Below, piece after piece: positions 223 to 11,683 of a stretch of DNA of 20,218 nt. The stretch covers positions 1-20,218 of the IMG/VR virus record IMGVR_UViG_3300042924_000031. One strand, 5' to 3'. This DNA is from a virus. A model generated the notes under the pieces. That model saw nothing but the letters and a program-made list of their open reading frames with translations, did no database searches and had not been told where the DNA came from. A program made the translations under genes and the position numbers. How positions within the stretch are numbered: the stretch's first letter is position 1; every line of letters begins with the position of its first letter.

Positions 223-678
223 ATGACATTCCTCAGCTTCCCTTACGCACCCCGTACGTTGCAAGCCACAGAGTCACGGCTCAAAGCAATCATGGACGCC
301 GCACGGCTTGGACTTAAAGGCGACAGGCTTGCCATCGCCGCAGGCATGATGCCCACCGAGTACCGGCAACTGTGCCAGTTTGACCCCATCGTGGAGTACG
401 CCGAACTCAAGGCGCGCACCGAATCTGAGATGGCTATGAGCCAAGTGCTACACGCCGCCGCGCTCGAGGGCGACATCAAAGCAGCCACCACCATCTTGCA
501 GAACCAGCACGACTGGGTAGCCAAGCAGCAAATTAACGTCGAGATTGACCAGCGCATCTCCATCAGCCAAGCGCTCGAGATGGCGCAGCAACGCACAACC
601 AAGGCTATACAAATGGAAGCTCAAGAAGTGAGCTACACCGAAGTCAAACAAACTAAAGAAAAACAAAAAGCCGCCTAA
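223..678 (+). CDS. Probable terminase small subunit
   Basis: This 151 aa protein probably recognises phage DNA and brings it to the large terminase for packaging. The case rests on position (its stop overlaps the start of a clear large terminase by one base, TAATG), size, and an N-terminal helical region (about residues 17-50) compatible with a helix-turn-helix. That is followed by a helical central part with the A-A-x-x-G-D-I-K-A-A pattern and 'LQNQHDW' often seen in small terminases. The C-terminus is lysine- and glutamine-rich. The ATG at 223 has no Shine-Dalgarno sequence; the next in-frame ATG (292) would delete the start of the helical DNA-binding part. With the promoter at 188-215, the mRNA may be leaderless. 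Family assignment is inferred from context more than from diagnostic motifs. Confidence 0.75.
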   Translation: MTFLSFPYAPRTLQATESRLKAIMDAARLGLKGDRLAIAAGMMPTEYRQLCQFDPIVEYAELKARTESEMAMSQVLHAAALEGDIKAATTILQNQHDWVAKQQINVEIDQRISISQALEMAQQRTTKAIQMEAQEVSYTEVKQTKEKQKAA

Positions 679-2207
679 TGCAAGAACCCCGCTATTCCGC
701 GCAAGACGAGATGGAACTCATGGCGCGGCTGTGGGCGCCAGCCATTAAAGACAACCCCCTAGCGTTCGTGATGTTTGCGTTCCCGTGGGGCGAAGCTGGC
801 ACACCGCTAGAACACTTCACTGGGCCACGCAAGTGGCAACGCCAGGTATTGCAAGACCTAGCCGAACACATCAAAAAGAACGACGGGCAGGTGGACTTTG
901 ACGTACTGCGCCTAGCAATTGCGTCAGGCCGTGGTATTGGCAAGTCGGCGTTAGTCAGTTGGCTAGTGCTGTGGATGATGACCACAAGGATCGGGTCAAC
1001 GGTCATCGTGTCGGCGAACAGCGAGAGCCAGCTACGTTCGGTGACATGGGCCGAGATCACCAAGTGGTCGTCTATGTCGATCAACACCTACTGGTGGGAG
1101 ATCAGCGCTACCCGCGTGATGCCTGCTAAATGGCTGACCGAGCTAGTCGAGCGTGACCTCAAGAAAGGCACCCGCTACTGGAACTTAGAGGGACGGCTAT
1201 GGTCGGCTGAGAACCCCGACGCGTTCGCGGGAGTACACAACTACGACGGGGTAATGGTCGTGTTTGATGAAGCGTCAGGTATTGACGACTCCATCTGGGC
1301 GGTGACATCAGGCTTCTTTACGGAGAACACACCGAACCGCTTTTGGTGCTGCTTTAGTAACCCACGGCGTAATACCGGCTATTTCTACGAGGCGATCGAG
1401 GGTAGCAAGCGTGACTTTTGGCAATCAAGGCAGGTGGACGCTAGGGACGTGGAAGGCACCGACAAGAACGTCTACAACCAGATCATTGAAGAATACGGCG
1501 CGGATTCCTACCAGGCGCACGTCGAGGTCTACGGTTCGTTTCCATCGGAAGGCGACGATCAGTTTATCCCGTCAACGTTGGTGGACGAAGCCATGCGGCG
1601 GGAAAAGCACAAAGACGACACCGCGCCCTTGGTGGTGGGCGTGGATCCAGCACGGTTTGGCTCGGACTCGACAGTTATTGCAGTGCGGCAAGGGCGGGAC
1701 ATTGTGGAGATCCGCCGGTTTAAGGGCGACGACACGATGGTCGTGGTCGGCCACGTGATCGAAGCAATCGAGCAGTACCAGCCAGCGGTCGTTGCCATCG
1801 ACGAGGGTGGGCTAGGCGCAGGGGTAGTGGATCGCTTGAAAGAGCAGCGCTACAAGATCAGGGGCGTGAACTTTGCGAACAAGAGCAAGAACCCCATGAT
1901 GTATGGCAACCTGCGGGCGCAGATTTGGGGGCAGATGAAGGATTGGCTCAAGACGGCCAGCATCCCAAACGAAAAAATGCTCAAGACCGACCTGATCTCA
2001 CCCATGATGAAGCCCGACAGCAAGGGGGCGATCTACTTGGAAGGCAAGAAAGAGATGAAGGCGCGGGGCTTGGCATCACCCGACAGTGCAGACGCTATTG
2101 CTTTGACGTTTGCATTTCCTGTTGCACACCGCGAATATAAGGGTACAATTCGGAAATCATCGTATTCAAGTCAGGGCGCAGCCCTAAACTCATGGATGGG
2201 AAGCTAA
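678..2207 (+). CDS. Terminase large subunit (packaging ATPase and nuclease)
   Basis: This 509 aa packaging motor cuts concatemeric DNA and pumps it into the prohead through the portal. The N-terminal ATPase has a Walker A loop SGRGIGKS (residues 83-90), a Walker B strand ending in the DE pair (GVMVVFDEAS, 191-200) and the coupling motif SNP (227-229). The C-terminal RNase H-like nuclease has the three expected acidic residues: D323 in GVDPARFGSD, D375 in VVAIDEGG, and D472 in SPDSADAIA. Length is typical of a full-length large terminase and no motif is broken. The start overlaps the small-subunit stop (TAATG), and its own stop overlaps the next start in the same way, so translation is probably coupled. 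Base composition here is clearly more G+C-rich than in the later fibre genes (38 of 60 bases in 1201-1260). Confidence 0.96.
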   Translation: MQEPRYSAQDEMELMARLWAPAIKDNPLAFVMFAFPWGEAGTPLEHFTGPRKWQRQVLQDLAEHIKKNDGQVDFDVLRLAIASGRGIGKSALVSWLVLWMMTTRIGSTVIVSANSESQLRSVTWAEITKWSSMSINTYWWEISATRVMPAKWLTELVERDLKKGTRYWNLEGRLWSAENPDAFAGVHNYDGVMVVFDEASGIDDSIWAVTSGFFTENTPNRFWCCFSNPRRNTGYFYEAIEGSKRDFWQSRQVDARDVEGTDKNVYNQIIEEYGADSYQAHVEVYGSFPSEGDDQFIPSTLVDEAMRREKHKDDTAPLVVGVDPARFGSDSTVIAVRQGRDIVEIRRFKGDDTMVVVGHVIEAIEQYQPAVVAIDEGGLGAGVVDRLKEQRYKIRGVNFANKSKNPMMYGNLRAQIWGQMKDWLKTASIPNEKMLKTDLISPMMKPDSKGAIYLEGKKEMKARGLASPDSADAIALTFAFPVAHREYKGTIRKSSYSSQGAALNSWMGS

Positions 2208-2494
2208 TGGCGACCAAGAAACACGACAAACCGATCCCGCGCACCACCACTGGTAAGGGCGCAAACTACAAGCTCACCGAAAAAGGTGCGGGGATGACTG
2301 CCAAAGGAAGGGCTGAGTACAATGCAAAAAATAACGCAAATCTTAAACCGCCTGCTCCAAATCCTAAGAGTAAGGCTGATGCTGGTCGAAAAGCCAGCTT
2401 CTGCGCCAGAATGTCCGGCGTCGTCGCCCACGCCAAAGGCGACGCCCCGCGTGCGAAAGCCGCGCTCAAAAGTTGGAACTGTGGTAAAAAATAA
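2207..2494 (+). CDS. Small basic phage protein (DUF6321-like)
   Basis: A 95 aa, strongly basic protein. The part with TEKGAGMTAKGRAEYN, then NLKPPAPNP and RKASFCARMSG, resembles a short family of unknown function I know from phages (DUF6321-type: 'GLTAKGRAKYN ... NLKPP ... RRKSFCARM'). It ends K-S-W-N-C-G-K-K. The two conserved cysteines (in SFCARM and WNCGKK) could matter, but no metal site is evident. I chose ATG 2207, which overlaps the terminase stop (TAATG), over ATG 2192, which would read further into the terminase gene. It is the first of three tiny lysine-rich proteins between terminase and co-chaperonin. Its function is unknown; small size and charge are compatible with nucleic-acid or capsid-interior binding, which is only a guess. 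Confidence 0.8.
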   Translation: MATKKHDKPIPRTTTGKGANYKLTEKGAGMTAKGRAEYNAKNNANLKPPAPNPKSKADAGRKASFCARMSGVVAHAKGDAPRAKAALKSWNCGKK

Positions 2495-2504
2495 GGAGAA
2501 AACT

Positions 2505-2669
2505 GTGGCTACTAAACCTGGATTGTATGCAAATATTCACGCTAAACAAAAGCGCATTGCGGCTGGTAGTGGTGAGAGGATGCGTAAAGTTGGCGCTAAG
2601 GGCGCGCCTACTGCGAAGGACTTTAAAGAATCAGCTAAAACGGCTAAACCAGCTAAAAAGGGGAAATGA
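2505..2669 (+). CDS. Tiny basic phage protein, GTG start
   Basis: A 54 aa lysine-rich protein of the recurring phage type 'GLYANIHAKQKRIAAGSGERMRK...GAPTAKDF' that I recognise from many environmental phage genomes without a known function. The same frame stays open upstream to 2322, but that part overlaps the previous gene and has no family resemblance. The true start is the GTG at 2505, preceded by a strong ribosome site AAGGAG (2493-2498) six bases before it; the conserved block begins just after. The stop TGA (2667-2669) shares a base with the next ATG (2669). The conserved G-S-G-E-R-M-R-K-x-G core suggests selection, not chance. Confidence 0.82.
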   Translation: MATKPGLYANIHAKQKRIAAGSGERMRKVGAKGAPTAKDFKESAKTAKPAKKGK

Positions 2670-2812
2670 TGCCACTCAAGAAAAGCGCAAGCAAAGAGGC
2701 GTTCCGTCAGAACATCAAGGCTGAGGTCAAAAGTGGCAAGCCCGTCAAGCAGGCAGTAGCTATTGCGTATGCAACCAAACGTGCTGCGGCTAAACCTAAA
2801 ATGAAAAAATGA
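2669..2812 (+). CDS. Tiny basic phage protein (DUF6496-like)
   Basis: A 47 aa protein with 9-10 lysines. The arrangement MPLKKSASKEAFRQNI, then GKPVKQAVAIAYATKR, follows the pattern of a small family common in phages (a short helix, then 'G-K-P-x-K-Q-A-[VI]-A-I-A', as in DUF6496-type proteins). Function is unknown. The ATG at 2669 is favoured over ATG 2666 because GGGG (2660-2663) sits five bases before it; it overlaps the preceding stop by one base (TGATG). Its stop TGA overlaps the co-chaperonin start in an ATGA. Placed in the packaging operon, it should be made together with terminase and portal. Confidence 0.78.
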   Translation: MPLKKSASKEAFRQNIKAEVKSGKPVKQAVAIAYATKRAAAKPKMKK

Positions 2813-3084
2813 GCTTACAACCTTTATCTAACTGTGTTCTAATCAGGCAAGACATTGAAAAATTATCTGATCTGATTGTTTTACCCCAAAATAAATTATT
2901 TAGCGGTATCATTGTGGCAGCGGGAGAAGGCAAAAAAAGTCCGAAAGGGCATATTGAGCCTATGAACGTCAACGTCGGCGACCGTGTGCTATTCGGTGAG
3001 TATTCCGGGCAAAAAGTTACGGTCGATGGCGAAGAATTGCTAATGATGCGCGAGCCAGACGTGATTGGAATATTACATGAATGA
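2809..3084 (+). CDS. Phage GroES-like co-chaperonin
   Basis: A 91 aa protein with the layout of the Cpn10/GroES family, which caps GroEL and encloses folding substrates. It opens with a strand like the GroES N-terminus (PLSNCVLIRQ). A loop with the hydrophobic tripeptide IVL (23-25) follows, which in GroES contacts GroEL. Next come 'GIIVAAGEGKK', a roof-loop-like segment with K-G-H-I-E-P-M (46-52), the typical 'VNVGDRVLFGEYSGQKV' (54-70), and the C-terminal 'DGEELLMMREPDVIGIL'. Full-length GroES is about 97 aa, so this is complete. The start overlaps the preceding stop (ATGA) and the stop lies inside the portal gene start. Known phage co-chaperonins (T4 gp31, RB49 CocO) help fold the coat protein; a similar role for the coat at 10481 is inferred. 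The mobile loop is shorter than in GroES. Confidence 0.87.
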   Translation: MSLQPLSNCVLIRQDIEKLSDLIVLPQNKLFSGIIVAAGEGKKSPKGHIEPMNVNVGDRVLFGEYSGQKVTVDGEELLMMREPDVIGILHE

Positions 3085-5299
3085 CCCAACAGGCATGAAC
3101 AAGGTAGGTCAAGTAGCCAACGTAGGTAGTAACCCTACTGGCCCAGATGACCACCGCGATAAACTGGCTGAGATGCGTCATCGGTACACGATGGCGATTG
3201 CGGCGTACAGCGACAGTCGTGAAGATGAGTTAGATGACCTGCGCTTTATGGCGGGTAGCCCTGACAATCAGTGGCAATGGCCTGCCGACGTACTACAAAC
3301 GCGCGGTTCGGTGCAGGGTCAAACGATCAATGCCCGTCCTTGCCTTACAATTAACAAATTACCGCAACACGTTCGGATGGTTACGAACGAACAACGTCAG
3401 AACCGCCCATCCGGCAAGGTCATCCCTGCGGATGACAAGGCTGACGTGCAGGTCGCTGAGATCTACGACGGCATGGTTCGTCACATTGAGTATTTGTCAG
3501 ATGCCGATGTAGCGTACGACACCGCCTGCGAGAACCAGGTCACATACGGCGAAGGGTACATCCGCGTCTTGACCGAGTATTGCAACGACAACAGCTTCGA
3601 CCAAGACCTTAAGATCGGACGCGTACGCAACAGTTTCAGCGTTTACATGGATCCGATGTCGCAAGACCCTACGGGCGCAGACGCCTGCTGGTGTTTTATC
3701 ACCGAAGATTTGACCAAAGAAGAATACGAGCGTGAATTTCCTGATGCCGCGCCCGTTAGCTCTATTTTGGCAAGCGGTGTAGGCGATCAGTACCTTAGCC
3801 AATGGTTAGATGAGAACACCATCCGTATTGCCGAGTATTTTTACTACAGATACAAAGACGCAACCCTGAATTTGTACCCTGGCAACGTCAGTTTGTTTGA
3901 TGGATCGCCTGAAGATAAAGAAATGAAGATGATGGGCTTAAAACCCATCAAAAGCCGCCCAGTACAGCGCAAAACCGTGATGTGGATGAAAACAAACGGC
4001 TATGAAGTGCTTGAAGAACGTGAGTGGGCAGGCAAATGGATCCCTGTTGTACGCGTAATTGGCAATGAATTTGAGGTAGAAGGCCAGATTTACATCTCCG
4101 GCTTGGTACGTAATGCTAAAGATGCCCAGCGGATGTACAACTACTGGACTAGCCAAGAGGCAGAGATGCTTGCCTTGGCACCAAAAGCACCATTTATCGG
4201 CTACGGCGGTCAGTTTGAGGGTTACGAGCAGCAATGGAAGACCGCAAACACGACCAATTGGCCGTATTTAGAGGTAAACCCCGACGTGACCGATGGCATG
4301 GGCGCTGTTTTGCCTTTGCCACAGCGCGCCCCACCCCCATTACCCCAAACTGGCTTAATTCAAGCCAAGATGGGTGCAAGCGATGACATCAAGTCCACCA
4401 CTGGACAGTACGACTCGAGCTTAGGAGCCACAAGTAACGAACGCTCAGGTCGGGCTATTCTGGCACGGGAAAAACAAGGCGACACAGGCACGTATCACTA
4501 TGTTGACAACTTGTCCCGTGCAATTCGTCACATTACCCGTCAGTTAGTTGACATGATCCCCAAGATTTACGACACCGAGCGTATTGCTCGCATCGTAGGG
4601 CTTGATGGTGAAGTCGAGATGGTTAAGATTAACCCTGAGCAGCCCGAGCCAGTCAAAGAAATCCGCGACGAAACAGGGCTGTTGATTGAAAAGATCTACA
4701 ACCCAGGCGTAGGTACTTACGACGTGGTGGTTACGACTGGCCCAAGCTACATGACTAAGCGTCAAGAGTCGTTAGATGCTATGAGTCAGCTATTGCAGGG
4801 TAATCCTCAGCTTTGGGCAGTGGCAGGTGATCTGTTTGTTAAGAACATGGATTGGCCTGGCGCTCAAGAGATGGCTGCACGGTTTGCCAAGACAATTGAT
4901 CCTAAACTAATGAGCGACGACGACAAGTCACCTGAGTTGCAAGCCGCAGAGCAACAAATACAGATGATGGGTCAGGAAATGGAAGGTATGCACACCATGT
5001 TGCAAAACGTCCAAAAGTCGATGGAAGCACAAGATCTTGATCGTAAAAACTTTGAAGCTGAGATTAAGGCTTACCAGGCTGAAACCCAGCGGATTAGCGC
5101 TGTTTCCGCAGGCATGACCCAAGAGCAGATTCAAGACATTGTAATGGGTACCATTGCAGCCGCTTTGGATACAGGCGATTTGGTTGGTAACGAATTACAA
5201 CGTCAACCAATGGAGATGCCTGAAGAAATGGCAATGGAGATGCCTCAAGAAATGCCAATGGAAGGTCAAATACCGCCTGAAGGGATGATGCCACAATGA
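3077..5299 (+). CDS. Portal protein, P22 gp1 type
   Basis: A 740 aa portal protein that forms the dodecameric ring at one capsid vertex, through which DNA enters and leaves. Length is close to P22 gp1 (725 aa). Typical portal features include the N-terminal 'EDELDDLRFMAGSPDNQWQW', the early 'RPCLTINKLPQHVRMVTNEQRQNRP', and the later 'ATSNERSGRAILARE', where D-x-x-x-x-G-A-x-S-N-E-R-S-G is characteristic of P22-like portals. The C-terminal region (about 600-700) is helical and Q/E-rich, fitting the barrel that extends inward in P22. It ends in a Met/Pro-rich tail with a tandem repeat. The ATG at 3077 is preferred to the upstream TTG at 3065, because it is a canonical codon inside the preceding gene's last residues, with GGAA just upstream. 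Position right after terminase agrees with the role. Confidence 0.95.
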   Translation: MNDPTGMNKVGQVANVGSNPTGPDDHRDKLAEMRHRYTMAIAAYSDSREDELDDLRFMAGSPDNQWQWPADVLQTRGSVQGQTINARPCLTINKLPQHVRMVTNEQRQNRPSGKVIPADDKADVQVAEIYDGMVRHIEYLSDADVAYDTACENQVTYGEGYIRVLTEYCNDNSFDQDLKIGRVRNSFSVYMDPMSQDPTGADACWCFITEDLTKEEYEREFPDAAPVSSILASGVGDQYLSQWLDENTIRIAEYFYYRYKDATLNLYPGNVSLFDGSPEDKEMKMMGLKPIKSRPVQRKTVMWMKTNGYEVLEEREWAGKWIPVVRVIGNEFEVEGQIYISGLVRNAKDAQRMYNYWTSQEAEMLALAPKAPFIGYGGQFEGYEQQWKTANTTNWPYLEVNPDVTDGMGAVLPLPQRAPPPLPQTGLIQAKMGASDDIKSTTGQYDSSLGATSNERSGRAILAREKQGDTGTYHYVDNLSRAIRHITRQLVDMIPKIYDTERIARIVGLDGEVEMVKINPEQPEPVKEIRDETGLLIEKIYNPGVGTYDVVVTTGPSYMTKRQESLDAMSQLLQGNPQLWAVAGDLFVKNMDWPGAQEMAARFAKTIDPKLMSDDDKSPELQAAEQQIQMMGQEMEGMHTMLQNVQKSMEAQDLDRKNFEAEIKAYQAETQRISAVSAGMTQEQIQDIVMGTIAAALDTGDLVGNELQRQPMEMPEEMAMEMPQEMPMEGQIPPEGMMPQ
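5210..5257 (+). repeat. Tandem 24-bp repeat in portal gene tail
   Basis: Two adjacent 24-bp units (5210-5233 and 5234-5257) differ at only two positions. They encode MEMPEEMA and MEMPQEMP (about residues 712-727 of the portal). A third partial copy starts at 5258 (MEG). The repeat keeps the frame and lies in a low-complexity Met/Glu/Pro tail, so it looks like a recent slippage-type duplication in a tolerant C-terminus. Confidence 0.85.
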
Positions 5300-5658
5300 G
5301 CTGCGAAAAATTTATAGGAATGTTGTTTTTGGCACGGGATGTTACTCATTCGGCGCATCTTAACACCCGTAGTTACTCCAAGCACAAAGCGTTACAAAAA
5401 TTTTACGAGAATATTATTGACCGGGCAGACGCGTTCGCCGAGGCGTACCAGGGACGAAAAGGTTTGATTGGCCCGATTGCATTAGCGTCAGCCAAAAAGA
5501 CCAATAACGTCCTTGAGTTTTTAGAAGATCAGCTTGCCGAGCTTGAAACTATGCGATATGAAGTGTGTAGCAAAGATGACGCTCCGTTACAAAACTTAAT
5601 TGATGGAATTATTGATTTGTATTTAACAACGCTCTATAAATTACGGTTTCTAGCATAA
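5296..5658 (+). CDS. Small Dps/ferritin-like protein (DUF5856-like)
   Basis: A 120 aa helical protein. Residues 14-53 resemble helices A-B of Dps, the iron-storing, DNA-protecting dodecamer. H21, H30, D45 and E49 are spaced like the E. coli Dps ferroxidase residues H51, H63, D78 and E82 (H30 to D45 to E49 is +15 and +19, as in Dps). Dps D67 is replaced by Q34, and H21-H30 is three residues shorter. The C-terminus (about 92-119, 'DAPLQNLIDGIIDLYLTTLYKLRFL') resembles the last Dps helix. It is much shorter than Dps (about 167 aa) and lacks the basic N-terminal tail. Similar phage proteins are known to me as DUF5856 (from memory). The start is an ATGA overlap with the portal stop and the stop overlaps the next start (TAATG). 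Iron oxidation or DNA protection is inferred; a purely structural four-helix role is possible. Confidence 0.7.
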   Translation: MSCEKFIGMLFLARDVTHSAHLNTRSYSKHKALQKFYENIIDRADAFAEAYQGRKGLIGPIALASAKKTNNVLEFLEDQLAELETMRYEVCSKDDAPLQNLIDGIIDLYLTTLYKLRFLA

Positions 5659-6287
5659 TGCCAATAACTGTCAACCATTCAACGCCTGCCGACGGTACTT
5701 TTAGTGCTACGGGCGCAGCGGCTTGGGATGCTAACCACACATTAAGTGGTTTGGGGACAATGGCAGAGCAAAATGCCAATAACGTCAATATTACTGGCGG
5801 TTCAATTACAGGCGTAAGTGGATTAGGAACAGTCACTAGCATTACGGCTGGCACAGGACTTACTGGCGGCACAATTACTAGTTCAGGAACAATAGCTATT
5901 GATTCTACTGTTGCTACGCTAACAGGAACACAAACCTTAACTAATAAACGAGTAACTAACCGCATCGGTTCTAATGGTGGAACAACAAGTGGAAATATTA
6001 CACCTACTAGCGATACTGCTGACCAATATAATATTACTGGTCTTACTGGTACATCTGCTATTCAAATTCCTTCAGGAACACCTACAGACGCACAAAGACT
6101 ATCCATCCGAATCAAAGACAACGGAACAAACAGAACATTAAGCTGGGTAACAACGGCTGGCGGTTACAGGGTTATTGGTACTACATTGCCATTAACAACA
6201 ACTGCCAATAAAACAATTTATGTAGGTTGTGTGTATAACAATGCTGACTCCTTTTGGGATGTCGTAGCAGTAGCAAGCGAGGTATAA
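5658..6287 (+). CDS. Tail fibre-type structural protein
   Basis: A 209 aa protein rich in Thr, Gly, Ser and Asn, typical of phage fibres. 'LGTMAEQNANNVNITGGSITGVSGLGT' and 'TLTGTQTLTNKRVTNRIGS' are stock segments of fibre shafts, forming short beta repeats. The C-terminal domain (about 140-209, 'LSIRIKDNGTNRTLSWVTTAGGYRVIGTTLP ... IYVGCVYNNADSFWDVVAVASEV', given in pieces) is a recurring beta-rich tip module in environmental phages. It probably sits on the virion exterior and may help host binding. The start overlaps the Dps-like gene stop. The gene begins a clearly AT-richer stretch compared with terminase and portal. No catalytic motif is seen, and the exact virion position is unknown. Confidence 0.75.
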   Translation: MPITVNHSTPADGTFSATGAAAWDANHTLSGLGTMAEQNANNVNITGGSITGVSGLGTVTSITAGTGLTGGTITSSGTIAIDSTVATLTGTQTLTNKRVTNRIGSNGGTTSGNITPTSDTADQYNITGLTGTSAIQIPSGTPTDAQRLSIRIKDNGTNRTLSWVTTAGGYRVIGTTLPLTTTANKTIYVGCVYNNADSFWDVVAVASEV

Positions 6288-6288
6288 G

Positions 6289-6453
6289 ATGGCTAATTGT
6301 GCAGTTATTGATTCTAACAATGTAGTAGTCAATATTATTGTTGCCGAACTAACCGACCCACCACCTGAAGGTTGCACTTTGGTGGAAATTCCGTTTTGTG
6401 ATATTGGTTACACATGGGATGGTGTACGATTTAACCCACCACAGGCTGACTAA
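6289..6453 (+). CDS. Small fibre-associated protein
   Basis: A 54 aa protein beginning MANCAVIDSNNVVVNIIVAE and ending in 'GYTWDGVRFNPPQAD'. This two-part pattern ('...AVIDxxNVVVNIIVA...' then 'G..WDG..F.PP') recurs in small phage proteins beside fibre genes. It resembles the N-terminal part of tail-fibre assembly chaperone proteins, but the function is not established. The ATG at 6289 is two bases after the preceding stop, and its stop overlaps the next start (TAATG). It lies between two probable adhesin genes, which suggests assembly or attachment of those proteins. Confidence 0.7.
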   Translation: MANCAVIDSNNVVVNIIVAELTDPPPEGCTLVEIPFCDIGYTWDGVRFNPPQAD

Positions 6454-8684
6454 TGGCTAATAGGTATTGGGTAGGTGGTACAGGAACTTGGGATGCTACC
6501 GCTGGTTCTAAATGGGCTTTAACTTCAGGCGGTGCTGGTGGTCAAGCCGTACCTACTTCTGCCGATGATGTTTTCTTTGATGCCAACTCTGGTGCAAATA
6601 CTGTAACCATTGGTTCAGGTACTTCTGTTTGCAGAATTTTAACCATGACAGGGTTCACAGGAACTCTTGCGTTTGGAACAAATAGTATTGATATTGCTGG
6701 TAATGGTGGTCTTGGTGTGTTTACAGGGGCAACCACTTATTCTGTAACAGGAACACCAGTAATCAACCTTACGTATTCTGGCTCAACTGCAACCAGTATT
6801 GGTCCAGCGGCAGTAACAGAGGCTAATGCTATTAGTTTTAATATTACCGCAGGAACTTATGCGATTAACATAAACACTAATGGGGTTGTTAAAAATTTAA
6901 ACTTTACTGGGTTTTCGGGAACTTGGACTGCCACTACAGCTAATACAATTTATGGAAATTTAACCCTTAGTTCAACTCAAGGGACATTTTCATCTGGTGG
7001 TACTAAAACCTTTGGTGCAACATCAGGCACACAATTAATTACTAGCAATAACAAAACACTAGATTTTCCAATTACTATTAATGCAGTAGGGGCTACAGTT
7101 CGCTTAGTTGATGCACTAACAATGGGCGCAACAAGAACTTTAAACTTAACTGCTGGCACATTTGACGCTAGTAATCAAAACGTAACTGTTGGATTATTTA
7201 ACAGTTCAAACTCAAACACTAGAACACTTACAATGGGTTCAGGTACTTGGACATTAAGTGGAACTGGAACTGTCTGGACTACATCAACAACAACAAATTT
7301 AACATTTAATGCTAATACAGCTAATATTGTTTTAAGCAATAATTCTACAAACACAAGAACATTTACTGGCGGGCAAAACGTAAATTATAGTGGCACTACT
7401 ATTACAATCGGTGGAAATACATCAACATCAACAACAGTATTTAGCAGTCCTGGAACCATTTATGGAACAATAGCAAGCACAAAAACAGTTGCTCATACAA
7501 TTACTTTTGGTAACACCTTAGCAGTAACAGTAGCAAATTGGACTGTAACTGGAACTGCTGGAAACGTAGTAACTGTAAATTCAGATGGTGTGGGTTCACA
7601 AAGAACGCTAACCTACACAGGTAGCGGAGTATCTATGGACTATATGTCCATTACAAATATTAACTTTTCCTACACTTTAGGTGCTTCAAACCCTTACCTT
7701 GTTTATGCTGGTGCAAACTCTACTAATGGCGGTAATAACAACGGCATATTGTTTCAACCTACTACAGTTAAAGCCTACCGATTAACTACAGGCACTTCTT
7801 TTACAACCCCTGCTGATTGGAATAATTCTAATAACACTATTCACATGATTGGTGCTGGTGGTGGTGGAGCAACTTCAGCAGTATCAGGCAATAACCGAGC
7901 CGCTGGTGGCGGTGGGGGCGGTGGTGGATATACAGTTTTAACCAATCAATCATTAAGTGGTGCAATCCCTTACACAATCGGCACGTCTGCTGGTAACGCC
8001 AATGGTGGCTCTACAACATTTAACACTACTAATACTGCTGGTGGTGGCTCAAAAGGCAATGCTACTACTGCTCCTACTTCGTCAGGTGGTGCTGGTGGTA
8101 CAGGAACATACGCTGGTGGCACGGGTGGTGTTGGTGGGTTTGGAACAGCCGCTTCTACAGGCTATGGCTCAGGCGGTGGCGGTGGTGCTGGTGGCCCTAA
8201 CGGAATAGGTGGTATTGGTGGTAATGGAATTGGCGGTTTAGCTGGAACAATTACTGGCGGTGGCGGTGGTGGTAATGGTGGAGGAACTAACGGCACAAAT
8301 GGAACATCATCTGTAGGCGGTAACGGTGGTAATAACTTTGGTGGCACAGGCGGTGCAACTGGCGGTGCAGGTACTGGAGCAAACGGAACTGTTGGTGGTG
8401 GTGGTGCTGGCGGTGGTTCGGGAAGTTCTGGTGGACAAGGTGGTGCAGGGATAGATATTGCTAATACGATTGGTGGGGGTGGTGGTAAAGGCGGTCAAGG
8501 CGGTTTAGCTAGTTCGGTAACAACAAATACTGGTATATATGGTGGTGGCGGTGCTGGTGGTGGTGTTCAGACGGGCGGTACTTTTGGAACTGGCGGTGCT
8601 GGCTCACAAGGCGTTATCTTTATTGTCTATACGCCAAGCGGTGCGCCAGTAGCTAACAGTAACTTTTTCTTGATGTTTGGATAA
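6453..8684 (+). CDS. Large glycine-rich adhesin / structural protein
   Basis: A 743 aa protein in two parts. Residues 1-430 are Thr/Asn/Gly-rich with repeated short beta strands ('WVGGTGTWDATAGSKW', 'TLTMGSGTWTLSGTGT'), suggesting a beta-helix or stacked-sheet shaft. From about 440, 'AYRLTTGTSFTTPADW' then 'IHMIGAGGGG' begins a classic glycine-rich domain with many G-G-x and GGGG runs. It closes with 'GSQGVIFIVYTP', the usual last strand of that domain. Glycine-rich segments of this kind form packed polyglycine helices in the adhesins of T4-like phages (S16 gp38), where they bind receptors; that role here is inferred by analogy. No enzyme motif is seen. The start overlaps the preceding stop. 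Composition is AT-rich (20 of 60 G+C in 7261-7320), except for the GGT/GGC-rich end. Confidence 0.78.
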   Translation: MANRYWVGGTGTWDATAGSKWALTSGGAGGQAVPTSADDVFFDANSGANTVTIGSGTSVCRILTMTGFTGTLAFGTNSIDIAGNGGLGVFTGATTYSVTGTPVINLTYSGSTATSIGPAAVTEANAISFNITAGTYAININTNGVVKNLNFTGFSGTWTATTANTIYGNLTLSSTQGTFSSGGTKTFGATSGTQLITSNNKTLDFPITINAVGATVRLVDALTMGATRTLNLTAGTFDASNQNVTVGLFNSSNSNTRTLTMGSGTWTLSGTGTVWTTSTTTNLTFNANTANIVLSNNSTNTRTFTGGQNVNYSGTTITIGGNTSTSTTVFSSPGTIYGTIASTKTVAHTITFGNTLAVTVANWTVTGTAGNVVTVNSDGVGSQRTLTYTGSGVSMDYMSITNINFSYTLGASNPYLVYAGANSTNGGNNNGILFQPTTVKAYRLTTGTSFTTPADWNNSNNTIHMIGAGGGGATSAVSGNNRAAGGGGGGGGYTVLTNQSLSGAIPYTIGTSAGNANGGSTTFNTTNTAGGGSKGNATTAPTSSGGAGGTGTYAGGTGGVGGFGTAASTGYGSGGGGGAGGPNGIGGIGGNGIGGLAGTITGGGGGGNGGGTNGTNGTSSVGGNGGNNFGGTGGATGGAGTGANGTVGGGGAGGGSGSSGGQGGAGIDIANTIGGGGGKGGQGGLASSVTTNTGIYGGGGAGGGVQTGGTFGTGGAGSQGVIFIVYTPSGAPVANSNFFLMFG

Positions 8685-8692
8685 AAATTGCT

Positions 8693-9673: not shown

Positions 9674-10462
9674 ATGGACGAAAGTCAAGAAGTAGTACCA
9701 GCGGAAGTATCCGCGCCAGAGCAGGTGGCAACGGCTGCACCTGAAACTGAAGAATTAGCGCCGGAAGCAGTAGAACCAGCAGCAGAAGCACCTAAAACCT
9801 TCTCACAAGAAGAATTGGATGCCGCTATTGGTAAAAGACTTGCTAGAGAACAACGTAAGTGGGAAAGAGAACAGGTTGCTAAAGCCGCTGAAAAGCAGCT
9901 TAAAACCCCAGTAGAAATCCCGCCGATTGAGCAGTTTGCTTCACCTGATGAGTACGCCGAGGTTTTGGCTGAAAAAAAGGCAGAAGAATTGCTTGCTAGG
10001 CGTGAACAAGCTAGGATGCAGTCTGAGATTATTGAGTCCTACCACGACAGAGAAGAAGATGCGCGGAATAAGTACGATGACTTTGAACAAGTCGCCTACA
10101 ACCCCAAGCTACCAATCACTGACGCAATGGCTCAAACAATCCAATCTTCCGATATTGGCCCTGATATGGCTTATTACCTAGGGTCTAATCCGAAAGAAGC
10201 GGATCGTATTTCTCGTTTATCACCTCTCCAACAAGCCAAAGAATTAGGGAAAATTGAGGCTAAATTAGCTGATAACCCAGTCGTAAAAAAGACTACAAAT
10301 GCTCCGGCGCCTATTGCTCCGGTGACGGCGAGATCCAGCAGTGGATCGCCTGCGTACGATACAACTGACCCACGATCGCTGAAAAGCATGAGTACGTCAG
10401 AATGGATCGAAGCAGAACGCCAACGCCAGGTCAAGAAGTACGAAGCGCAACGAAACCGCTAA
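9674..10462 (+). CDS. Head scaffolding protein
   Basis: A 262 aa protein, somewhat shorter than P22 gp8 (303 aa), that probably directs coat assembly into a prohead and then leaves. Residues 1-40 are acidic and rich in E, P and A. Residues 41-125 contain a charged helical stretch ('FSQEELDAAIGKRLAREQRKWERE'-type, shown in part) typical of phage scaffolds. A small flexible region follows (about 205-235). The C-terminal helix ('STSEWIEAERQRQVKKYEAQ', about 240-259, ending RNR) is basic; in P22 a basic C-terminal helix binds coat. It lies 18 bases upstream of the coat gene, the normal order. Start: ATG 9674 with AGGAA eight bases upstream. The assignment rests on composition, layout and position. 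Confidence 0.88.
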   Translation: MDESQEVVPAEVSAPEQVATAAPETEELAPEAVEPAAEAPKTFSQEELDAAIGKRLAREQRKWEREQVAKAAEKQLKTPVEIPPIEQFASPDEYAEVLAEKKAEELLARREQARMQSEIIESYHDREEDARNKYDDFEQVAYNPKLPITDAMAQTIQSSDIGPDMAYYLGSNPKEADRISRLSPLQQAKELGKIEAKLADNPVVKKTTNAPAPIAPVTARSSSGSPAYDTTDPRSLKSMSTSEWIEAERQRQVKKYEAQRNR

Positions 10463-10480: not shown

Positions 10481-11683
10481 ATGTCAAATTCGATCTTAAC
10501 CATCGACATGATTACAAGAAAAGCGCTCGAAATCCTCGAGAACAACCTTGTACTCACACGTAACGTAAACCGCCAGTATGACGATTCTTTCGCTGTTGAA
10601 GGCGCAAAAATCGGTTCTACTCTCCGTATCCGTCTACCAGACCGCACTTTGGTAACTGACGGTGCTGCCTTGCAAGTTCAGGCAGACAACGAGCAGTTCA
10701 CAACTTTAGCCGTTGCTAGCCAAAAGCACATTGGTGTTAACTTCACCTCTGCTGAAATGACCATGCAGTTAGATGACTTTGCAGAGCGTGTTCTAAAACC
10801 ACGTATTTCGCAATTGGCTTCTTCTATCGACGCTGACGTAGCTAATTCGTATAAAGCGATTGCTAACTCGGTCGGTACGCCTGGCACAACTCCTTCTACT
10901 TCGTTGGTGCTGTTACAAGCCCAGCAAAAGCTGAACGAAAACGCTGCTGTTATGTCACCACGCTACGCTACTGTTAACCCAGCAGCGAACGCTGGCTTGG
11001 TTGAAGGCATGAAAGGCCTGTTTAACCCAACCGACACCATTTCTAAGCAGTTTAAGAATGGCATGATGGGTATGGGCGTGTTGGGCTTTGAAGAAGTTAA
11101 TATGTCACAGTCCATCAAGCAACACACCAACGGCGACTGGGGTACAACTATTACTGTTACCTCAACTGTAACCACCGAAGGCGCAACAACTCTTGGTATC
11201 AGCTTTACAGGCTCTAGCAAGACTTGGAACGTGGGCGACGTGTTCACTATCGGCAGTGTATTTGCTGTTAACCCACAAACCCGTGAGTCTACAGGTAGCT
11301 TGCAACAGTTCACTGTAACTGCTGCTGCAACTGGTTCTTCAACAGCTACTTTGTCAATTAGCCCAGCGCTATTCTCAGCTACTCAAGCCTTGGCTACTGT
11401 ATCTGCATTGCCTGCGGCTTCTGCTGTAGTAACAATGTTGGGTAACGCTCAAGGTCAATACGCTCAGAACTTGGTATACCACAAAGATGCGATCACTTTT
11501 GCGACCGCTGACTTGTTGATGCCACAGGGCGTAGACATGGCTTCACGTCAAGTTCACAACGGTATTTCAATGCGTATTGTTCGCCAATACGACATTAACA
11601 ATGACCGTTTGCCTTGCCGTATTGACGTTCTCTATGGCTATAGCACAATCCGTCCACAGATGGCCTGCCGTATTTTTGGCTAA
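10481..11683 (+). CDS. Major capsid protein, P22 coat type
   Basis: A 400 aa coat protein (P22 gp5 has 430) that builds the icosahedral shell. The N-terminus carries the family hallmarks: 'ILTIDMITRKALEILENNLV', 'NRQYDDSFAVEGAKIGSTL', 'RIRLPDRTLVTDG' and 'VNFTSAEMTMQLDDFAER'. About residues 215-330 are Thr/Ser/Val-rich beta sequence ('GDVFTIGSVFAVNPQTRES'), matching the insertion domain of P22 coat. The end 'RIDVLYGYSTIRPQMACRIFG' completes the HK97-type core. The ribosome site AAGGA (10470-10474) lies six bases before the ATG. A hairpin with a GNRA loop follows the stop, so coat may be the most abundant product of a processed or attenuated mRNA. Confidence 0.95.
   Translation: MSNSILTIDMITRKALEILENNLVLTRNVNRQYDDSFAVEGAKIGSTLRIRLPDRTLVTDGAALQVQADNEQFTTLAVASQKHIGVNFTSAEMTMQLDDFAERVLKPRISQLASSIDADVANSYKAIANSVGTPGTTPSTSLVLLQAQQKLNENAAVMSPRYATVNPAANAGLVEGMKGLFNPTDTISKQFKNGMMGMGVLGFEEVNMSQSIKQHTNGDWGTTITVTSTVTTEGATTLGISFTGSSKTWNVGDVFTIGSVFAVNPQTRESTGSLQQFTVTAAATGSSTATLSISPALFSATQALATVSALPAASAVVTMLGNAQGQYAQNLVYHKDAITFATADLLMPQGVDMASRQVHNGISMRIVRQYDINNDRLPCRIDVLYGYSTIRPQMACRIFG

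Follow-up and report, generated by a model that had tools for sequence, protein, structure and literature searches.

A GroES-like co-chaperonin gene with a short mobile loop between the terminase and portal genes of a phage with a P22-type coat

A phage with P22-type portal and coat genes encodes its own GroES (Cpn10) homologue within the run of head genes. We consider it likely (probability about 0.77) that this protein caps the GroEL of the host and serves the folding of at least one abundantly produced phage protein, and that it is an accessory cassette gene with no obligatory coat partner. The window, which is the whole stretch of DNA that was analysed, corresponds to a 20,218-base virus record in IMG/VR. 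The GroES gene occupies positions 2809..3084 on the plus strand and encodes a protein of 91 residues and 10.0 kDa. It is under purifying selection, has a mobile loop shorter than that of cellular GroES and is patchily distributed among relatives of the phage.

The 2809–3084 protein belongs to the GroES family by both profile and fold. The Pfam Cpn10 profile PF00166 matches it over positions 2–92 of 93 with 64.5 bits (E 9e-18; cut-off 21.1), and phrog_3188, named 'co-chaperonin GroES', gives a full-length match (1–95 of 96, E 8.4e-15). The sequences of solved GroES structures also match, the best being 8wuc (E 1.4e-15). With NCBIfam models of cellular GroES the protein reaches at best 78.4 bits, where the cut-off is 120, and so stays below the subfamily and equivalog cut-offs. 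An AlphaFold2 monomer, calculated from an alignment of 36 sequences (the window protein and its relatives), has a pLDDT of 87, and its sole weak region, residues 21–30, lies in the mobile loop. The model superimposes on human and bacterial structures in Foldseek with TM scores of 0.84 for 4pj1 (Hsp10) and 0.79 for 1aon (GroES), bacterial GroES and human Hsp10 lying at about 0.75–0.84. All the strong matches are GroES or Hsp10, and T4 gp31 (1g31) is a weak one (E 4e-3). In a library of viral models, 68 match at E ≤ 0.001, many of which are named GroES. Structure prediction, proposed as a check for the GroES barrel when the gene was interpreted from its sequence alone, thus returned a barrel that matches GroES and Hsp10.

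Relatives of the protein number 139 in IMG/VR, and the median pairwise dN/dS among 48 distinct sequences of the window family is 0.08; together these exclude a chance ORF, and the low ratio marks a real, constrained gene. The 48 sequences show little or no variation at residues 8–12 (NCVLI), 14–15 and 17–18, at the core glycines and at nearly all of the IVL tripeptide. A spurious ORF, or an ORF on the opposite strand at 2796–3089, was considered and rejected, since the profile match and the dN/dS of 0.08 favour the plus frame. The Pfam, PHROG and fold matches and the purifying selection agree with the sequence-only reading, which had named the gene a phage GroES-like co-chaperonin inside the head operon.

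The gene order in the window is TerL (terminase large subunit), three small basic ORFs, GroES, a P22-type portal, a phrog_858 protein, tail- or fibre-like genes, a scaffold, a P22-type coat and tail genes, and the genes detailed here are all on the plus strand. TerL (678..2207; phrog_2, 148 bits) is followed by a small basic DUF6321 protein of the TerL–portal cassette (2192..2494; PF19846, 58.8 bits), which occurs with and without GroES, and by two more small basic ORFs that recur in relatives, a cassette member at 2505..2669 (KPGLYANIHAKQ..., with an uncertain start codon) and one at 2669..2812 (MPLKKSASKEAFRQNIKAEV...). The latter overlaps the GroES start by 4 nt, in the sequence ATGA. At its other end GroES overlaps by 8 nt the gene for the P22-type portal (3077..5299; 740 residues, 83 kDa; PF16510, 579 bits; phrog_156). 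No clear ribosome-binding site was seen before GroES on inspection of the sequence, and in view of this, translational coupling of GroES is likely. The tight overlap with its neighbours that had been noted earlier therefore holds for the small ORF and the portal, but not for the terminase, which lies in the same gene run with three ORFs between. Further downstream, a head scaffolding protein (9674..10462; phrog_8865, 103 bits) precedes the P22-type coat (10481..11683; 400 residues, 42.7 kDa), which matches PF11651 across the whole protein with 136 bits.

All three ORFs of the 2192–2812 cassette are strongly basic, with a pI above 10 (DUF6321; KPGLYANIHAK...; MPLKKS...KAEV..GKPVKQAVAIAY), and most relatives, whether or not they carry GroES, have the cassette between TerL and portal. 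Directly after the portal gene, 5296–5658 encodes the phrog_858 protein (90 bits), a family named starvation-inducible transcriptional regulator. Between portal and scaffold, 6453–8687 encodes a 743-residue protein whose C-terminal half is very glycine-rich and which has the appearance of a surface or fibre protein.

The mobile-loop region of the window protein comprises residues 14–32 (QDIEKLSDLIVLPQNKLFS; 2848..2904, plus strand), as defined by alignment to 34 cellular GroES sequences, and coincides with low model confidence. It contains the hydrophobic tripeptide IVL at residues 23–25, the positions of which (I/L, V/I and L) are nearly invariant across the 48 sequences. Loop length was counted between the anchors equivalent to E. 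coli R14 and G38. By this count the loop has 18–19 residues in 48/48 window-family sequences and 22–23 in 34/34 cellular GroES; the sources of the latter were three genomes in which related (pro)phage contigs occur (two MAGs and one isolate), one more MAG, and 29 genomes belonging to the same phylum as the Rhodoferax MAG. Compared with the GroES of H. thermoluteolus (8wuc), the window loop lacks about one residue ahead of the tripeptide and three behind it; compared with E. coli GroES, about two are missing ahead of it and three behind. A loop shortened by about 5 residues relative to cellular GroES might weaken or alter GroEL binding. Other GroES proteins encoded in the same slot have loops of 17–19 residues, except for a host-like type (L126, L133 and L384) with 22. 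Canonical loops of 23 residues are found in L386 and L445, contigs from unrelated phages with very large genomes. In a tree of 97 columns only, the short-loop proteins of the slot group as a single clade separate from cellular GroES (support 100/95).

The roof segment (residues 40–56; 2926..2976, plus strand) has the canonical length of 17 residues, as in 34/34 cellular GroES. The GroES layout with an IVL tripeptide in the mobile loop, and the shortness of that loop, had both been recognised correctly from the sequence, the model adding barrel and roof; the different residue order reported around the roof loop amounts to ordinary sequence drift.

GroES is present in 21 of the 80 nearest IMG/VR portal relatives, some of the others having too little upstream sequence to judge. 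Relatives without GroES have the same small-ORF cassette alone, or carry an ORF of HNH type or Ig-like type in its place; elsewhere this variable slot holds HNH-type endonucleases, Ig-like or GNAT-like ORFs (all labels assigned by eye). In L085 (MW202483), an HNH-like endonuclease ORF at 5385–5957 lies before the portal, where GroES would sit, and the deposited annotation at this ORF is a shorter hypothetical protein. On the portal tree the presence of GroES is explained by 9 changes, where shuffles need 54, in a sample largely gathered via GroES itself, from which clustering can be read and lineage frequency cannot. A sister clade (L106/L107; portal 86%, TerL 95–97%) is without GroES, and Cpn10 was found in 0/28 whole GroES-negative records, several of which are fragments. 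On this tree the gene is inherited within clades and changed between them. Related portal genes are carried on MAG contigs of Rhodoferax, Burkholderiales, Methylococcaceae and Lysobacteraceae, and one is present in the isolate genome of Rhizorhabdus histidinilytica.

Several relatives of the window protein are without a roof. The roof segment has 8–9 residues in L082, L185, L091, L100, L424 and L428, among which L185 is a Rhodoferax MAG contig, L424 and L428 form a second branch, and L091 and L100 are two phages in which the GroES gene precedes the terminase. The GroES of the metagenome-assembled phage DSL-LC05 and its IMG/VR relatives has no roof in 80/80 proteins examined (82 residues; 55 distinct DNA sequences); at these IMG/VR loci TerL was found in 77/80 and the portal in 72/80, and the median dN/dS is 0.10. 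Roofless slot proteins of 80–82 residues (L082, L185, L304–L383, L424 and L428) are abundant in IMG/VR, and in the L304–L383 group a dN/dS of 0.10 indicates purifying selection. On a tree of 83 columns built without the roof columns, and for a group that was defined after the sequences had been seen, descent of the roofless slot proteins from one origin was rejected (p 0.017). The roof was therefore probably lost at least twice among relatives in the same slot; this is a reading of the sequence alignment, since the AlphaFold model of the roofless L185 protein reached only pLDDT 42.

A search of 17 records from relatives that carry GroES found no GroEL gene, which leaves the host GroEL as the only evident partner. 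A phage supplying its own GroEL was rejected on the same 0/17 records. In the reading that we prefer, subunits of the window protein would assemble into a seven-membered lid, and the IVL tripeptide of the mobile loop would bind the host GroEL. The lid would close the folding chamber late in infection, and the capped chamber would assist the folding of at least one phage protein that is produced in large amounts. The gene itself may be viewed as an accessory member of a recombining TerL–portal cassette, passed down over long periods in several clades, with gains or losses from one clade to another.

The most obvious competing proposal is that the protein is a co-chaperonin dedicated to the coat, as T4 gp31 is to gp23, and that the P22-type coat requires it to fold. 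Its location in the head operon is consistent with such a role, as is its clustering on the coat tree, on which GroES presence needs 4 changes against 16 in shuffles. GroEL/S also acts on folding mutants of the P22 coat: the passages of PMC2267774 that report Nakonechny and Teschke 1998 describe the wild-type coat as a weak GroEL/S client and ts mutants as strong ones. P22 is thus no clear case of a coat that needs a chaperonin. The portal tree, however, clusters GroES equally well with 4 changes, so that neither coat nor portal is favoured as the partner; nor do these counts show the converse, GroES tracking the portal rather than the coat. More telling are relatives sampled by coat identity in IMG/VR. 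Eight contigs whose coats are 89.75–94% identical to that of the window have no GroES gene near the portal and no recognisable GroES in their whole records (8–38 kb, several fragmentary, in which a diverged lid could be missed), and MW202483, with a coat 79% identical and a record called complete and circular, likewise has no recognisable GroES. With the 0/28 records above, these 0/8 records, several fragmentary, also led us to reject relocation of GroES to another site in GroES-negative relatives. The ordinary GroEL–GroES cage should accommodate a 42.7-kDa coat, the 83-kDa portal being beyond its limit, and for the coat a gp31-like enlargement would therefore be unneeded. A coat-dedicated function is for these reasons unlikely, and the coupling of a P22-type coat to its own GroES that the sequence-only reading had entertained finds no support in the comparison of near-identical coats. 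Coat folding may benefit from the window GroES without strictly needing it. Separately, the phages with coats about 90–94% identical (L200, L207, L208, L210–L213 and L223) have portals only 72–75% and TerL only 62–67% identical to those of the window, which suggests that the coat module has been exchanged between lineages.

Two further proposals dispense with a phage client. A short-loop lid could occupy GroEL as a modulator or competitor, diverting it from host clients or altering its cycle. The uniform loop of 17–19 residues in the short-loop slot clade, and the loss of the roof in some branches where selection still acts on the gene, would suit such an activity, but the window protein retains a complete roof and barrel. 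Moreover, we know of no GroES-like inhibitor of GroEL, and the phage GroES homologues tested so far (gp31 and RB49 CocO) are active co-chaperonins, which makes a modulator improbable. We also give little credence to a passenger gene that would aid proteostasis of the infected cell, for instance in cold or nutrient-poor water. Although the patchy occurrence in a slot with HNH-type, Ig-like and GNAT-like alternatives (labelled by eye) and the frequency of GroEL/GroES analogues in Southern Ocean viruses, interpreted as cold adaptation (PMC8407431), accord with this idea, the start/stop overlaps with late head genes and the clade-wise inheritance point to a role in late morphogenesis, and the short-loop clade stands apart from the cellular proteins.

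A phage lid for host GroEL, with no fixed coat client, therefore remains our preferred reading. Phage GroES genes are already well known and occur commonly in viromes from the environment, and the same slot of DSL-LC05 has an annotated one; what is unusual here is the fixed short loop together with the probable repeated loss of the roof. No paper on short-loop or roofless GroES variants in P22-type phages was found in the open-licence literature. To our knowledge, nearly all mechanistic understanding of phage GroES comes from T4 gp31 and RB49 CocO. The present clade supplies natural variants in one slot (roofed proteins with a long or a short loop, and roofless ones with a short loop), and close relatives with and without GroES provide matched pairs for testing the purpose of a phage lid. 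Comparative evidence already indicates that coupling between a P22 coat and its own GroES is not strict. It is a tentative and rather speculative suggestion that the co-chaperonins of this clade, with a short fixed loop (17–19) opposite to that of gp31 and a roof lost in at least two branches, form a tighter-gripping, open-topped lid adapted either to a specific virion client or to a freshwater Burkholderiales-type GroEL.

Among known systems, bacterial GroES and human Hsp10 share with the window protein the whole PF00166 profile, the barrel, the roof of 17 residues and the hydrophobic tripeptide. They differ in the loop, which has 22–23 residues in cellular GroES and 18 in the window protein between the same anchors, and in the residues before strand 1, which are 'DR' in E. 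coli GroES and an invariant 'NC' in the window family. T4 gp31 (1g31) and RB49 CocO are phage lids that, as is expected of the window GroES, work with the host GroEL. The mobile loop of gp31 has 22 residues, compared with 16 in GroES, and gp31 is without a roof (PMC6318259). The window protein shows the opposite in both respects, with a roof of 17 residues and a loop about 5 shorter than in GroES, and its roofless relatives share with gp31 only the absence of the roof.

Small podoviruses are known carriers of GroES, which is a core gene of the HTVC023P-type pelagiphages (PMC9599517) and has been noted in other podoviruses (PMC4294664); the hosts of these phages are different. Closer are Xanthomonas phage PBR31 and the uncultured phages ctn9Y15 and cta1H496, which combine a P22-type coat with GroES as the window does but carry GroES upstream of the terminase. 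The PBR31 protein (L083, 6891–7214) has an unusually long loop of 29 residues, and those of ctn9Y15 and cta1H496 are roofless. The closest counterpart in position is DSL-LC05, a metagenome-assembled genome from Dishui Lake of the proposed 'Luchaoviridae' (PMC10611076). Its record annotates a 'co-chaperonin GroES', which goes unmentioned in the main text of that paper. This GroES (WJZ48174.1, OR003940) lies, as in the window, between TerL and portal and has a loop of 18 residues. Portal and coat are each 74% identical to those of the window, but the DSL-LC05 GroES is a roofless protein of 82 residues, with a roof segment of 8 residues compared with 17 in the window.
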